Shown piece by piece: positions 9,389-14,302 of a DNA stretch of 64,000 nt (its first letter is position 1; each line of letters begins with the position of its first letter). The DNA lies in the NCBI GenBank assembly GCA_002839705.1, contig PGYO01000001.1, positions 248,001 through 312,000 of the forward strand. The letters run 5' to 3'. Below the pieces are notes generated by a model. The model was not told the DNA's origin. It searched no databases and saw only the letters and a list, made by a program, of their open reading frames with translations. The translations under genes and the position numbers were made by a program. Source of the stretch: Methanobacteriales archaeon HGW-Methanobacteriales-1 (lineage in GTDB: Archaea; Methanobacteriota; Methanobacteria; Methanobacteriales; Methanobacteriaceae).

Positions 9389-9955
9389 ATGATACGAATT
9401 GGAATCTTAAATTTGCAGGGAGATGTTTCAGAGCATTTTCAGATTGCTCAGAAAGCTCTGGAAAATCTGAAAGTTGAATACCAGTTACTGAATGTGAGAA
9501 CGGCTGAAGATGCTTCTCAATGTAATGGAATAATAATATCTGGTGGAGAAAGCACTGTCATTGGTAAATTGATGGTGGAAAATGGAATAAAAGATATTAT
9601 AATTCAAAATAAGATTCCAGTTTTTGGAACTTGTGCTGGAATGGTGCTATTGGCCAAAGAAACTGATTATGAACAACCTTTGTTAGAGTTAATGGATATG
9701 AAAGTCAAAAGAAATGCTTTTGGCCGTCAAAAAGATTCTTTTGAGCAAGAAATAGAGATATTAGGTGGAAAATATACTGGAGTTTTCATCCGAGCCCCGG
9801 CCATAGAAAAAGTAGGGGAAGATGTTCAGATAATTTCTAAAATTGATGATATAATTATTGGGGTGAAGCAGGGGAAAAATATGGCCCTGGCATTTCATCC
9901 AGAACTTACTGAAGATACTAGATTACATGAATACTTTATAAAGGAGGTATTATAG
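9389..9955 (+). CDS. pdxT: PLP synthase glutaminase subunit PdxT
   Basis: PdxT hydrolyses glutamine and channels ammonia to PdxS for pyridoxal 5'-phosphate synthesis. The 188-residue protein has the family length. It shows GILNLQGDVSEH at the N-terminus, ISGGEST, the nucleophile Cys in FGTCAGMVLLA, and the His-Glu pair in AFHPELT. Its TAG overlaps the GTG start of the next gene (9953-9957), so it is the first gene of the glutamate synthase operon; pdxS is not in this window. A sharing of regulation between two glutamine-using systems is inference. Confidence 0.95.
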   Translation: MIRIGILNLQGDVSEHFQIAQKALENLKVEYQLLNVRTAEDASQCNGIIISGGESTVIGKLMVENGIKDIIIQNKIPVFGTCAGMVLLAKETDYEQPLLELMDMKVKRNAFGRQKDSFEQEIEILGGKYTGVFIRAPAIEKVGEDVQIISKIDDIIIGVKQGKNMALAFHPELTEDTRLHEYFIKEVL

Positions 9956-10872
9956 TGTGTGGAATTGCAGGCGTAGTTTATAAAGATAAAAAGCTTCACC
10001 CCGTGGGAAGCGACATGACAAAAATGCTAAATGCTCTACAACACAGAGGCCCTGATTCTGCAGGGTTTTCTCTATATGGTGGATTAGGCCTTGAAGATAA
10101 CGAGTATTTACTTAATATTGAAGTTAAAGAAAGACCAGGACTAATTGAATCTGTTAAAGAAATAGTGGAATTTGTTAGTCCTATTAAATCTGAAGAAATA
10201 ATTCCTTCTGTGGAAAATTTCAACATCTATCGATGTAAAATTTCTCTGAATGAATTTTCCCAGTTAAAACCCCTGATTATGGATATTGACAAACTGGAAG
10301 ATGTCATGGTACTTAATGGTAGTCATTCATTTGAAATGATTAAAGACGTAGGCTCTGTCTTAGAAATTGCGGATAGATATGACACCTGGTCAAAAATGGG
10401 AACTCATGCTATTGGCCACACTCGATTTTCCACTGAAAGTCTGGTAGATAGATATCACGCTCACCCTTTCCAGACTTACATTATACCAGATATCACGGTG
10501 GTCCACAACGGCCAGATAACTAACTACTGGAAAATAAGGGACCCTCTGGAACGTAAAGGACACATATTTGAAACTAATAATGATACGGAATGCATTGTGC
10601 ATTATGTGGCCGATAAACTGGACAATGGATACTCATTAGAGGAAGCTCTAGAACAATCTGTTAAAGACATGGATGGGCCTTTTTCTTATATTATAGGGAC
10701 TCCTAATGGTGTAGGAATTGCCAAAGATCAACTGGGACTTCGTCCGGGAGTAATGTCTGAAAACGATGATGTCTTTGCCATTGCCTCTGAAGAAGTTTCA
10801 CTGAGAGAAGTTATGGATACTCAGAATGTGGAACAGATTTCCCCGGGAGAAGTTAGGGTTTACGAAATTTAA
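9955..10872 (+). CDS. Glutamate synthase glutaminase subunit (class II amidotransferase domain)
   Basis: This is the stand-alone archaeal equivalent of domain 1 of glutamate synthase: it releases ammonia from glutamine. The start GTG is followed at once by TGT, giving the N-terminal nucleophile Cys2 (MCGIAG) after Met removal, and AAGGAGGT lies ahead of it. LQHRGPDSAG, GHTRFST, HAHPFQ, VHNGQITNY and the NNDTE segment are typical of the Ntn amidotransferase fold. Residues about 60-140 form an insert between the N-terminal strand region and the main domain. The operon also encodes the other glutamate synthase domains as separate proteins. Confidence 0.92.
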   Translation: MCGIAGVVYKDKKLHPVGSDMTKMLNALQHRGPDSAGFSLYGGLGLEDNEYLLNIEVKERPGLIESVKEIVEFVSPIKSEEIIPSVENFNIYRCKISLNEFSQLKPLIMDIDKLEDVMVLNGSHSFEMIKDVGSVLEIADRYDTWSKMGTHAIGHTRFSTESLVDRYHAHPFQTYIIPDITVVHNGQITNYWKIRDPLERKGHIFETNNDTECIVHYVADKLDNGYSLEEALEQSVKDMDGPFSYIIGTPNGVGIAKDQLGLRPGVMSENDDVFAIASEEVSLREVMDTQNVEQISPGEVRVYEI

Positions 10873-10920
10873 TAATTTAAATTTGATATTATTTGAATGA
10901 TTATATATGAAGGTGATTTA

Positions 10921-11610
10921 ATGAGGGAAATAGAAATTGACGCTCAATCAAAAACTCCCAGGGAAATAAACCGTGCTATACGGGATATGAGTCAGGAATA
11001 TGATCGAATTATCCTGAAAAATCCTGATGCCAAGCATTACCTCGCGGCTGGCCTTACAAATGATGTGGAACTGGTCATTGAAGGTTCGGCAGGATACTTT
11101 GTAGGAACTATGACTCATAACGCTCGTATAAAAATAAATGGTAATGCTGGATGGTTTCCGGCAGATAACATGACTGATGGCGAAGTGATTGTTGAAGGAT
11201 CTGCTGGAGACGGTGTAGGTCAAGGAATATATGGTGGAACTGTAGTGGTTCGAAGGGATGTTGGATCCCGTACCGGAGAAATAATGAAGAATGGAACCGT
11301 AATTATCGGTGGAAATTCTGGATTTATGACGGGTATATTTATGATGGGTGGTAGAATTATCATCCTGGGTGATCTGGCTGAAGATGCAGGAGAATCTATC
11401 ATAAGGGGAGCTATTTACGTTCTAGGTGAAATTAAGAGCCTGGGAAAAAATGCTAAAATAGAAGAAATAGACGAGGAAGATAAAAAGGAATTGAAGGAAC
11501 TTCTACCTTCTTATGGTTTTGAATTAGATGATTCAAAATATGATAACTTCCGTAAAATAGTCCCAAGAAGCAAAAGACCATTCTATGGTCAGGATTCGGA
11601 GGAAGGATAA
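10921..11610 (+). CDS. Glutamate synthase GXGXG-domain subunit
   Basis: This equals the C-terminal beta-helix (domain 3) of bacterial GltB, as a separate 229-residue protein; the same fold occurs in formylmethanofuran dehydrogenase subunit C. Repeated G.(A/S)G.......G....V turns are obvious (GNAGWF, GSAGDGVG, GGNSGF). I use ATG 10921 because AAGGTGAT (10909-10916) sits just before it; an in-frame ATG at 10897 has no site. The stop overlaps the next start (TAATG, 11608-11612). It probably has a structural role linking the glutaminase and synthase parts. Confidence 0.9.
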   Translation: MREIEIDAQSKTPREINRAIRDMSQEYDRIILKNPDAKHYLAAGLTNDVELVIEGSAGYFVGTMTHNARIKINGNAGWFPADNMTDGEVIVEGSAGDGVGQGIYGGTVVVRRDVGSRTGEIMKNGTVIIGGNSGFMTGIFMMGGRIIILGDLAEDAGESIIRGAIYVLGEIKSLGKNAKIEEIDEEDKKELKELLPSYGFELDDSKYDNFRKIVPRSKRPFYGQDSEEG

Positions 11611-12800
11611 TGAATAATAACTCTGTTAAAAATCAAGCTGAAATAAAAGCGGGCACTTGTTCGGAGAAAATTGCCATGACCGGAACCCCCTGTCAAATCA
11701 TGGCCGCTTCTATTATGGATGATTATTCTGGTCATCTAGGGGATTTACCAGTAGATTTAAAAATAGGTCTTTTCTGTATGGAAAACTTTTCCTACAGCTA
11801 CTTAAAGGAACTTTTGAAAAAGCACGACATTGATTTAAAGGATGTGAGCCAGTGTCGTATTGAAAAGGGCTATTTATGGTTATATCTCACTGAAGATCAA
11901 ATATTCAAAATATCTTTAGATGAAGCTAAAACATGTATCCGAAAAAGCTGCCAGATATGTATGGACTTCACTTCTGAACAGTCTGATCTATCTGTCGGTT
12001 CTGTAGGATCTCCTGAAGGCTGGTCTACAGTCATTATCCGTAATGAAAAAGGATTAGAATTAATGGAAAATGCTGAGAAAGCTAATTACATTGAAACTAA
12101 ACCTATGTCTGATTCAGGGATAAAATTAATGGAAAGATTAGCCCTTAAAAAGAAATCTGAAAACTTACAAGAAATTAAAAAACGGGAAAACATGGCTCGC
12201 CCAGTGTTATACTGGAGAATAATGCCTGAAGGAGAATACTTGGAAGAAATTGCAGATAGTCAATTTGCAGACCTTAAAAGTGATGTTATTGATGTTGGTG
12301 CATGCGTTCTTTGTGGGGCCTGTTTATTGTCCTGCCCTGAAAATATTGTAGAAATAAATGGTAGAAAACCTGAAGTAAAAGGAAAATGCCCAGAAGGTTG
12401 TAATGCCTGTTATGTGGCCTGTCCTAGAACTTACGTTCCAGATAATATAGTTAGTCATGACGCTGAAAAATCTGCCTTTGGGAACTACATTAAAATAGTC
12501 TCTGCCAGGGCTGCCATGTTCCAGGGTCAGGATGGGGGAGTTGTTACTTCTCTATTAAGTTTTGCCGTTTCTAGCAAAGTGGTTGACGAGGCATTAATAG
12601 TAGATAAAAGTGCCCATGACCCATGGAAACCAAAACCAGGACTTACTGGTGATGTGGAATCAATCGTTAAAGCTTCAGGGACTAAATATTCTGCTTGTCC
12701 CATTTTTAAACCATTAAAAGATGAACAAAATAAATCATTAAAAAATAATTCATTTAGTGAATCAGGATCCAATAAATTAAAATCTAATGGGGGATCATAA
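11610..12800 (+). CDS. FrhB-like F420/ferredoxin subunit, circularly permuted, of glutamate synthase
   Basis: The 396-residue protein has all segments of the coenzyme F420 hydrogenase/dehydrogenase beta-subunit family but in swapped order. Residues about 20-195 match the usual C-terminal part (GTPCQI 25-30, KIGLFCMENF 51-60, C114/C117, SVGSPEGWST 131-140). Then follow two [4Fe-4S] ferredoxin motifs (C232/235/238/242 and C260/264/267/271). Residues about 293-371 match the usual N-terminal part (QDGGVVTSLL, PWKPKP, GTKYSACP), ending in a low-complexity tail. It overlaps both neighbours (TAATG at each end). Inferred role: passing electrons from F420H2 or ferredoxin to the FMN/Fe-S synthase subunit. 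Confidence 0.85.
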   Translation: MNNNSVKNQAEIKAGTCSEKIAMTGTPCQIMAASIMDDYSGHLGDLPVDLKIGLFCMENFSYSYLKELLKKHDIDLKDVSQCRIEKGYLWLYLTEDQIFKISLDEAKTCIRKSCQICMDFTSEQSDLSVGSVGSPEGWSTVIIRNEKGLELMENAEKANYIETKPMSDSGIKLMERLALKKKSENLQEIKKRENMARPVLYWRIMPEGEYLEEIADSQFADLKSDVIDVGACVLCGACLLSCPENIVEINGRKPEVKGKCPEGCNACYVACPRTYVPDNIVSHDAEKSAFGNYIKIVSARAAMFQGQDGGVVTSLLSFAVSSKVVDEALIVDKSAHDPWKPKPGLTGDVESIVKASGTKYSACPIFKPLKDEQNKSLKNNSFSESGSNKLKSNGGS

Positions 12801-14302
12801 TGCCTTTCAAAGTAGAAAGAAGTAAAGAGCTCTGTATGAGAAATTTTGACAGGCCTGGATGCTGCTGGTACTTATGTGACAACCGGGACGAAAGTCAATG
12901 TAAAAACTGTTACTCCTGTTATAACAACTGTCCTCATGACGTTTATGAAATAGTTGGGGATCAACCTTACCCACTTCACCATGAAAACTGTGTGGGATGC
13001 CGTATATGTGAAGAAATGTGTCCTAACGATGCAATTGAAGTAAATGCCGTGCCCGAAGATACTCGTAATGTTTGGTCATTCTCAGATCTATTGGAAATCC
13101 AGAGAAAATCTAACGAAGGATCCTACAAAGTTAGGGGATGTGGTGCAACCCGTATCATACCTACATTTGATGATCTGGTAATTGTACCGGCCCAGGTTTC
13201 CAGGCCACCTATTGACAAGTATCGGGAACCATGTAACACCAAAGTGGTTTTAGGAAGTCGTTACGCTGAAAACCCACTGGTACTGGACACACCTATTATG
13301 ATTGCAGCCATGTCATTTGGTGCACTAAGTAAAGAAGCCAAAATTGCTCTGGCTATGGGAGCTACTCTTGCTGGAACAGCTACCAACACGGGTGAAGGTG
13401 GAATGCTTCCAGAAGAACGTAAATACGCTTCTAAATTAATTGCCCAATATGCATCTGGTCGATTTGGTGTATCTGCAGAATATTTAAATAATTCTGAGGC
13501 AATTGAGATTAAAATTGGTCAGGGAGCAAAATCCGGTATGGGAGGACACCTTTTAGGTGAAAAAGTTACTGCAGAGGTATCTAAAATCAGAATGATTCCT
13601 GAAGGAAGTGATGCTCTAAGCCCGGCCCGACACATGGATATTGTAGGTCCAGAAGATTTGAGTATGAAGATTTCTCAATTAAGAGAAATCAGTGACTGGA
13701 AAGTCCCAATCATGGTTAAATTCACCTCTGGAAGGGTAAGTGACGATGTAAAGATTGCTGCTAAAGCTGGAGCAGACATAATTGTAGTGGATGGTATGCA
13801 GGGCGGAACTGGCGCTGGTCCGGATATAGTAACTGAACACTCTGGTGTTCCAACTATTGCTGGAATTGTGGAAGCAGATGAAGCCTTAAAACATATCAAC
13901 CTGAGGGAAAAAGTGAGTCTGGTAGCTGCAGGTGGTATCCGAAATGGTGCCGATGTGGCCAAGGCCATTGCTTTAGGTGCAGATGCAGCATACATTGCAA
14001 CTTCTGCGCTGGTTTCCATAGGCTGCCGTGTTTGTCAAAAGTGTTATACTGGAACCTGTAGGAAAGGTATCGCTACCCAGAATCCTCAATTTAGAAGGAG
14101 ACTGGACTATGTGGAAGGTGGTAAAAAGGTGGCCCGCTACATAGAAGCTATGACTGAAGAAGCTTGCATGCTTACCCAGCAGGCAGGAAATACTGATGTG
14201 AGCAAACTGGAAAAGGACGATCTTCGTGCATTAACTATCGAGTCATCAGTCCTAACTGGTGTGAAAATGGCCGGATTGGAAGCCCCTTTCATTAAAAAAT
14301 AA
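12800..14302 (+). CDS. Glutamate synthase FMN/Fe-S synthase subunit (archaeal GltB core)
   Basis: It makes two glutamates from 2-oxoglutarate plus ammonia handed over from the glutaminase, using reduced FMN. The 500-residue protein begins with Cys-rich segments and two ferredoxin motifs (about residues 31-70: CKNCYSCYNNCP and CVGCRICEEMCP). The FMN-binding barrel follows, with SFGALSKEAK, NTGEGGM, GQGAKSGMGGHL, VDGMQGGTGAGP and GGIRNGADVAKAI. The [3Fe-4S] motif CRVCQKCYTGTC lies near residues 411-422. Last gene of the five-gene operon; a stem-loop overlaps its stop codon. Confidence 0.94.
   Translation: MPFKVERSKELCMRNFDRPGCCWYLCDNRDESQCKNCYSCYNNCPHDVYEIVGDQPYPLHHENCVGCRICEEMCPNDAIEVNAVPEDTRNVWSFSDLLEIQRKSNEGSYKVRGCGATRIIPTFDDLVIVPAQVSRPPIDKYREPCNTKVVLGSRYAENPLVLDTPIMIAAMSFGALSKEAKIALAMGATLAGTATNTGEGGMLPEERKYASKLIAQYASGRFGVSAEYLNNSEAIEIKIGQGAKSGMGGHLLGEKVTAEVSKIRMIPEGSDALSPARHMDIVGPEDLSMKISQLREISDWKVPIMVKFTSGRVSDDVKIAAKAGADIIVVDGMQGGTGAGPDIVTEHSGVPTIAGIVEADEALKHINLREKVSLVAAGGIRNGADVAKAIALGADAAYIATSALVSIGCRVCQKCYTGTCRKGIATQNPQFRRRLDYVEGGKKVARYIEAMTEEACMLTQQAGNTDVSKLEKDDLRALTIESSVLTGVKMAGLEAPFIKK

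Follow-up and report, generated by a model that had tools for sequence, protein, structure and literature searches.

Predictions of an F420-dependent glutamate synthase date from 2011–2012 (PMC3087415, PMC3448663). The MTBMA_c06440/MTH193 enzyme was listed as still to be proven (PMC3087415), and the forms FGltS(I) and FGltS(II) were named, the subunit of the latter being called an FdhB homologue (PMC3448663). For the corresponding subunit of Methanothermobacter marburgensis (ADL58239), the legend to Fig. 9 of a 2013 eLife paper states that the C-terminal 83 residues match the N-terminus of FrhB and the N-terminal 182 residues its C-terminus (PMC3591093). This legend was the only account of the swapped order found in the open-licence literature searched, and wording beginning with 'permut' is absent from PMC3591093, PMC3087415, PMC3448663 and PMC9012536. 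Since both the swap and the F420 assignment have been published for an orthologue, the gene described here was already known and we claim no discovery of it. What is added is the phylum-wide distribution, the branch support for the permuted proteins and their contexts outside the phylum: POR (a Pfam name, 2-oxoacid:ferredoxin oxidoreductase, which does not specify the 2-oxoacid), mtd and fusion.

The window, i.e. the whole stretch of 64,000 nucleotides that was analysed (Methanobacteriales archaeon HGW-Methanobacteriales-1, contig PGYO01000001.1), contains an operon in the order GATase, GXGXG, permuted FrhB and GltS. This association of an FrhB-type gene with those for GATase, GXGXG and GltS in a single operon is the arrangement of FGltS(II). 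The features are as follows.

9955–10872, + strand: class-II glutamine amidotransferase subunit, the glutaminase component of the split synthase, with a GTG start (Pfam GATase_6/GATase_7); first of the four conserved genes
10897–11610, + strand: GXGXG (glutamate synthase C-terminal-like) subunit (Pfam GXGXG, E 2.2e-28)
11610–12800, + strand: circularly permuted FrhB-type subunit of 396 aa (C-half, ferredoxin, N-half)
11661–12209, + strand: FrhB C-half, residues 18–200 (Pfam FrhB_FdhB_C, mapping to the organism's own FrhB, conservation)
12285–12431, + strand: two-cluster ferredoxin, residues 226–274 (Fer4 models; Cys232/235/238/242 and Cys260/264/267/271)
12465–12722, + strand: FrhB N-half, residues 286–371, with the start of the QDGG helix and the FAD loop (Pfam FrhB_FdhB_N, mapping, conservation)
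12800–14302, + strand: GltS, an FMN glutamate synthase core that carries a two-cluster ferredoxin of its own at the N-terminus (Glu_synthase, E 1.3e-134; Fer4)

A sequence-only reading of this DNA had proposed a glutamate synthase, driven by F420H2 or ferredoxin, with a circularly permuted FrhB-like electron subunit. This interpretation is supported: sequence, operon and structure prediction all show an FrhB module in circularly permuted form that serves a split glutamate synthase. The overlaps that it reported on both sides of the permuted gene amount to exactly one base each, within TAATG at 11610 for the GXGXG gene and TAATG at 12800, where GltS starts on the stop codon that ends the permuted gene. 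Directly upstream of the amidotransferase gene, at 9389–9955, lies what reads as a PdxT-like glutaminase gene, whose stop overlaps the GTG start by one base. The GXGXG subunit also matches NCBIfam models of formylmethanofuran dehydrogenase subunit C (FwdC) below cut-off; this likeness reflects a known homology and could mislead annotation. Promoter-like sites were no commoner in the window than in shuffles, under a bacterial model applied to an archaeal host. Elsewhere in the same genome (G000, C4:85569-86628 and C21:608-1657), we found two further GltS-like cores, one full and one broken by in-frame stops.

Compared with the M. marburgensis orthologue, which belongs to the same family and has the same swapped order, nothing of substance differs, except that the N- and C-terminal tails of the window protein are longer. 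The latter is about 62–64% identical to the other-family rows of the alignment, which may include Methanothermobacter. The Methanobacteriales orthologues surveyed likewise carry the two-cluster ferredoxin between the halves. In FGltS(I), found in Methanococcales and others, an FrhB-family subunit also adjoins a split glutamate synthase, but it is unpermuted (ferredoxin-N-C), the gene order is GATase-GltS-GXGXG-FrhB and its tree position is separate; FrhB-family proteins therefore joined glutamate synthase at least twice.

Pfam places FrhB_FdhB_C (PF04432) at residues 19–168 (E 1.8e-47) and FrhB_FdhB_N (PF04422) at residues 299–370 (E 4.5e-18), both above the curated cut-offs, with the ferredoxin motifs at about 226–274 and no internal stops in the ORF. 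The single chain thus holds both halves that define the FrhB/FdhB family, but with the C-half ahead of the N-half, and so counts as a permuted form of the family, not as an ordinary member. When the PDB was searched with phmmer, the nine top chains, all of the FrhB family, matched as two stretches in swapped order, and the alternative of a normal-order alignment to a known family was not borne out. A rotated copy (residues 205–372 followed by 17–204, i.e. ferredoxin-N-C) gave a single stretch in all 11 PDB chains listed, including 8riu_B, 9r51_B, 8rja_E, 6qgr_B, 3zfs_C and Fsr, and the rotation raised the scores of FrhB-type chains (from 200.8 to 211.3 bits for 8riu_B, and from 138 to 151 for Fsr, 7np8_A). 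Rotation therefore restores a collinear match to the parent family. The swapped-order alignment signal is far beyond chance, and the permutation is real, with the cyclic order of the modules intact. The chain is cut in a linker of about six residues, between residues 87 and 94 of the organism's own canonical FrhB. The order first read from the sequence (ending half, ferredoxin motifs, beginning half) agrees with both Pfam and the PDB alignments; of the clean breakpoints also claimed, the single ORF and the cut in the linker stand, but residues 1–17 and the last 25 or so form tails with little conservation. In relatives such as L010, the chain begins directly with the GTPCQI half.

FrhB shares with the window protein both halves, the four cluster cysteines and the FAD loop, and differs in its N-C order, in having no ferredoxin of its own (this is located in FrhG) and in keeping the IGKGK loop. 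The N-half of Fsr, FpoF/FqoF and CODH zeta (8riu_B) share all three modules and the ferredoxin-to-N junction with the window protein, and provide the best PDB match; these chains are opened elsewhere, so that their C-half comes last, not first. FdhB, the formate dehydrogenase beta subunit, described as FrhB with a C-terminal ferredoxin, consists of the same modules with a third opening (N-C-ferredoxin), but its sequence match is much weaker, and the best PDB matches do not favour the label of FdhB homologue. One cyclic order of modules is opened at three different points, giving ferredoxin-N-C in Fsr and FpoF, N-C-ferredoxin in FdhB and C-ferredoxin-N in the window protein. The last of these is a clean, naturally occurring case of circular permutation in a module central to archaeal electron transfer. 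Family models that score the halves separately conceal this difference in order.

AlphaFold, supplied with 68 permuted homologues, produced a single compact model (pLDDT 89.5, pTM 0.88); with 29 near relatives only, the pLDDT was 68.5, and it was the distant permuted homologues that raised it. The top Foldseek matches in the PDB were all of the FrhB family, the C-half superposing with 1.8 Å rmsd over 188 columns. Because Foldseek aligns in sequence order, the N-half was not superposed together with the C-half. According to the model, the two halves likely close into one FrhB fold: the confident single-chain model speaks for the whole, and the superposition for the C-half alone.

The cluster ligands of FrhB, Cys104/134/192/195 (PMC3591093), map through the organism's own FrhB to Cys28/56/114/117, so that the proximal [4Fe-4S] ligands are kept; they are invariant in all 68 permuted proteins aligned. 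Lys75-Tyr76 of the FrhB FAD loop corresponds to Lys359-Tyr360, and this Lys-Tyr pair, like the eight ferredoxin cysteines, is retained in 29 of 29 Methanobacteria rows. The F420-side elements lie in the C-half and comprise loop 84–88 and Ser131/Val132. Ser131 is kept in Methanobacteria, while the loop, IGKGK in FrhB, reads IEKGY here; it also varies among canonical and other F420-family members. In some host-associated, glutamate-synthase-linked relatives the loop has decayed further (IEGGS, IENNR), hinting that some members of the order may have changed donor.

It is quite probable that the permuted gene encodes the electron-input subunit of a split, predicted F420H2-dependent glutamate synthase, FGltS(II), and that this subunit, a naturally occurring, circularly permuted FrhB module, belongs to a wider archaeal clade. 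From the observed domain order, ligands, operon and distribution and the confident single-chain model, we infer the assembly of the complex, the electron path and F420H2 as donor. The chain would begin in the linker between the FrhB halves and run through the C-half, with the cluster and the F420 side; the two-cluster ferredoxin would then bridge the old C-end and N-end, and the N-half would complete the FAD site. Electrons would pass from F420H2 to FAD, the proximal [4Fe-4S] cluster, the internal ferredoxin, the GltS ferredoxin, FMN and finally the adduct of 2-oxoglutarate and ammonia, the latter supplied by the amidotransferase subunit. The synthase part of this mechanism is modelled on the established bacterial glutamate synthase. 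Its input side follows from homology to FrhB, Fsr and CODH zeta, relatives in which F420 coupling has been measured (e.g. CODH zeta, 8riu; PMC11493965).

The identity of the donor is the weak point, given that the F420-side loop is altered and decays further in relatives. Plant 7-hydroxymethyl chlorophyll a reductase is a relative of FrhB that works with ferredoxin. We consider it unlikely that the permuted FrhB takes its electrons physiologically from reduced ferredoxin and not from F420H2. One or both loop lysines have been lost in many glutamate-synthase-linked rows, 5dqr is also among the Foldseek and phmmer matches, and one genome (G002) keeps GATase, GXGXG and GltS without the subunit; however, the closest solved relatives are F420 enzymes, Ser131 and Lys359-Tyr360 are retained in Methanobacteria, and the orthologue has been published, as a prediction, as F420-dependent.

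The permuted form was detected in about 128 of the 152 genomes of the GTDB phylum Methanobacteriota, counting rows with a best E below 1e-45; in the others, matches were weaker and of the canonical FrhB type, or absent. Within the order, families f1, f2 and f3 have the permuted form, as does the sister lineage f4 (G120). Of 111 loci (some genomes being counted twice), 76 show all four genes as GATase>GXGXG>permuted FrhB>GltS, and most of the remaining loci have short flanks. No unpermuted FrhB was seen in a GATase-GXGXG-GltS operon in the survey of these 152 genomes. As for the question raised by the sequence-only reading, whether the order is fixed in Methanobacteriales, the subunit is permuted wherever it was found. 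Among eight genomes examined that lack it, seven have a divergent GltS and one, G002, has GATase>GXGXG>GltS. Since G002 keeps the other three genes, the enzyme may take electrons another way. At the site of the permuted subunit, this genome (L120, G002:C23, Methanobacteriaceae) has only about 20 bases, a clean loss of the electron-input gene. The divergent GltS cores (L121–L127, in G031, G016, G052, G110, G032, G035 and G014, also Methanobacteriaceae) score 246–288 bits versus 860–1140.

A profile built from 29 permuted proteins was run against 74 FrhB_C-bearing archaeal genomes of other lineages. Single-ORF C-ferredoxin-N proteins were found in an archaeal phylum of 23 genomes (19 of them with a match at E ≤ 1e-50), in a phylum represented by one genome (G173) and in a single genome (G157) out of 247 sampled from a large phylum; G157 shares family f10 with G239, a genome with an FqoF-like gene that we take to be a relative of Archaeoglobus. 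Pfam and a three-domain HMM confirmed the C-ferredoxin-N order outside Methanobacteriota, and we reject the idea that the permuted form is confined to Methanobacteriales. MCR_alpha was absent from the outside representatives tested, including POR-linked genomes; the latter are therefore not ANME, and the assignment of family f5 to ANME-1 was dropped. A candidate in G242 (L176/L209) was also rejected, as it consists of two adjacent FrhB-family genes, the first truncated at the contig start.

Four classes of context were distinguished. In class 1 (L193, L195, L196, L198, L201, L204, L206 and L208, plus partial loci), the permuted FrhB gene opens a POR operon and is directly followed by POR gamma, delta, alpha and beta. 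In class 2, permuted FrhB and the POR beta domain (TPP_enzyme_C) share one ORF, truncated by the contig end (L192:5036-6667, G173:C104), and this C-ferredoxin-N-TPP fusion directly follows POR gamma, delta and alpha genes. In class 3 (L191, L197, L200, L203, L205, L210, L214 and L216), the permuted protein, mostly of 486–493 aa, is followed by mtd, whose product is itself an F420 enzyme; at L197:6210-8491, L200, L203, L205 and L214, its C-terminus is extended by about 85 residues that match no Pfam family, with mtd immediately next. Class 4 (L194, L199, L224 and L226) is a third permuted paralogue without a POR or mtd neighbour, and the gene after the L199 copy (L199:6672-7781) encodes a multihaem cytochrome. 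No GltS neighbour was seen at the outside loci examined. We found no description of the POR, mtd and POR-beta-fusion contexts of the permuted form in the open-licence literature searched. ANME-1 FrhB6 and FrhB10 are FrhB paralogues encoded in clusters for pyruvate:ferredoxin oxidoreductase or glutamate synthase, published with domain order not stated (PMC9012536); compared by context alone, they resemble the permuted POR group. For POR, redox considerations were argued to allow the reduction of F420 but not its oxidation (PMC9012536). With the permutant heading POR operons, F420-coupled 2-oxoacid chemistry becomes directly testable.

From the distribution and gene contexts observed, we infer a shared function and a single origin: it seems probable that permuted FrhB is a distinct archaeal electron module, likely of one origin, employed in at least three settings, namely glutamate synthase in Methanobacteriales, POR operons with the POR-beta fusion in further phyla of archaea, and an mtd-linked operon. 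If true, F420-coupled 2-oxoacid oxidation and F420-coupled glutamate synthesis would be carried out by one rewired unit. In the best full tree (IQ-TREE, C- and N-halves, 77 proteins), a single permuted/canonical change was found, weakly supported (45/88; 52% of bootstraps), and the glutamate synthase rows form one group (100/100). When the ferredoxin columns were included, with ferredoxin-bearing rows only, the permuted proteins made up one side of a branch (87/89; 88% of bootstraps), and the breakpoint and ferredoxin junction are identical in all permuted proteins examined. Against these results, a repeated origin, with the glutamate synthase and POR/mtd forms convergent, is rather improbable, even though with all FrhB types included barely half of the bootstrap trees need only one change, a quick tree built after the longest rows were dropped calls for two, and the proteins of L163 (G173) and of the L194/L199/L224/L226 paralogues sit on unresolved or long branches. 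A single origin of permuted FrhB is likely, not proven. It may have come about through tandem duplication of a ferredoxin-N-C gene and subsequent loss of the outer parts, with recruitment to its present partners later. Assembly errors often yield swapped domains, but no evidence was found for a frameshift, a chimeric assembly or the erroneous joining of two gene pieces, and such an artefact is refuted to near certainty by the multi-genome survey, in which the single ORF recurs across Methanobacteriota and in other phyla, together with the conserved operon and the high-confidence model.
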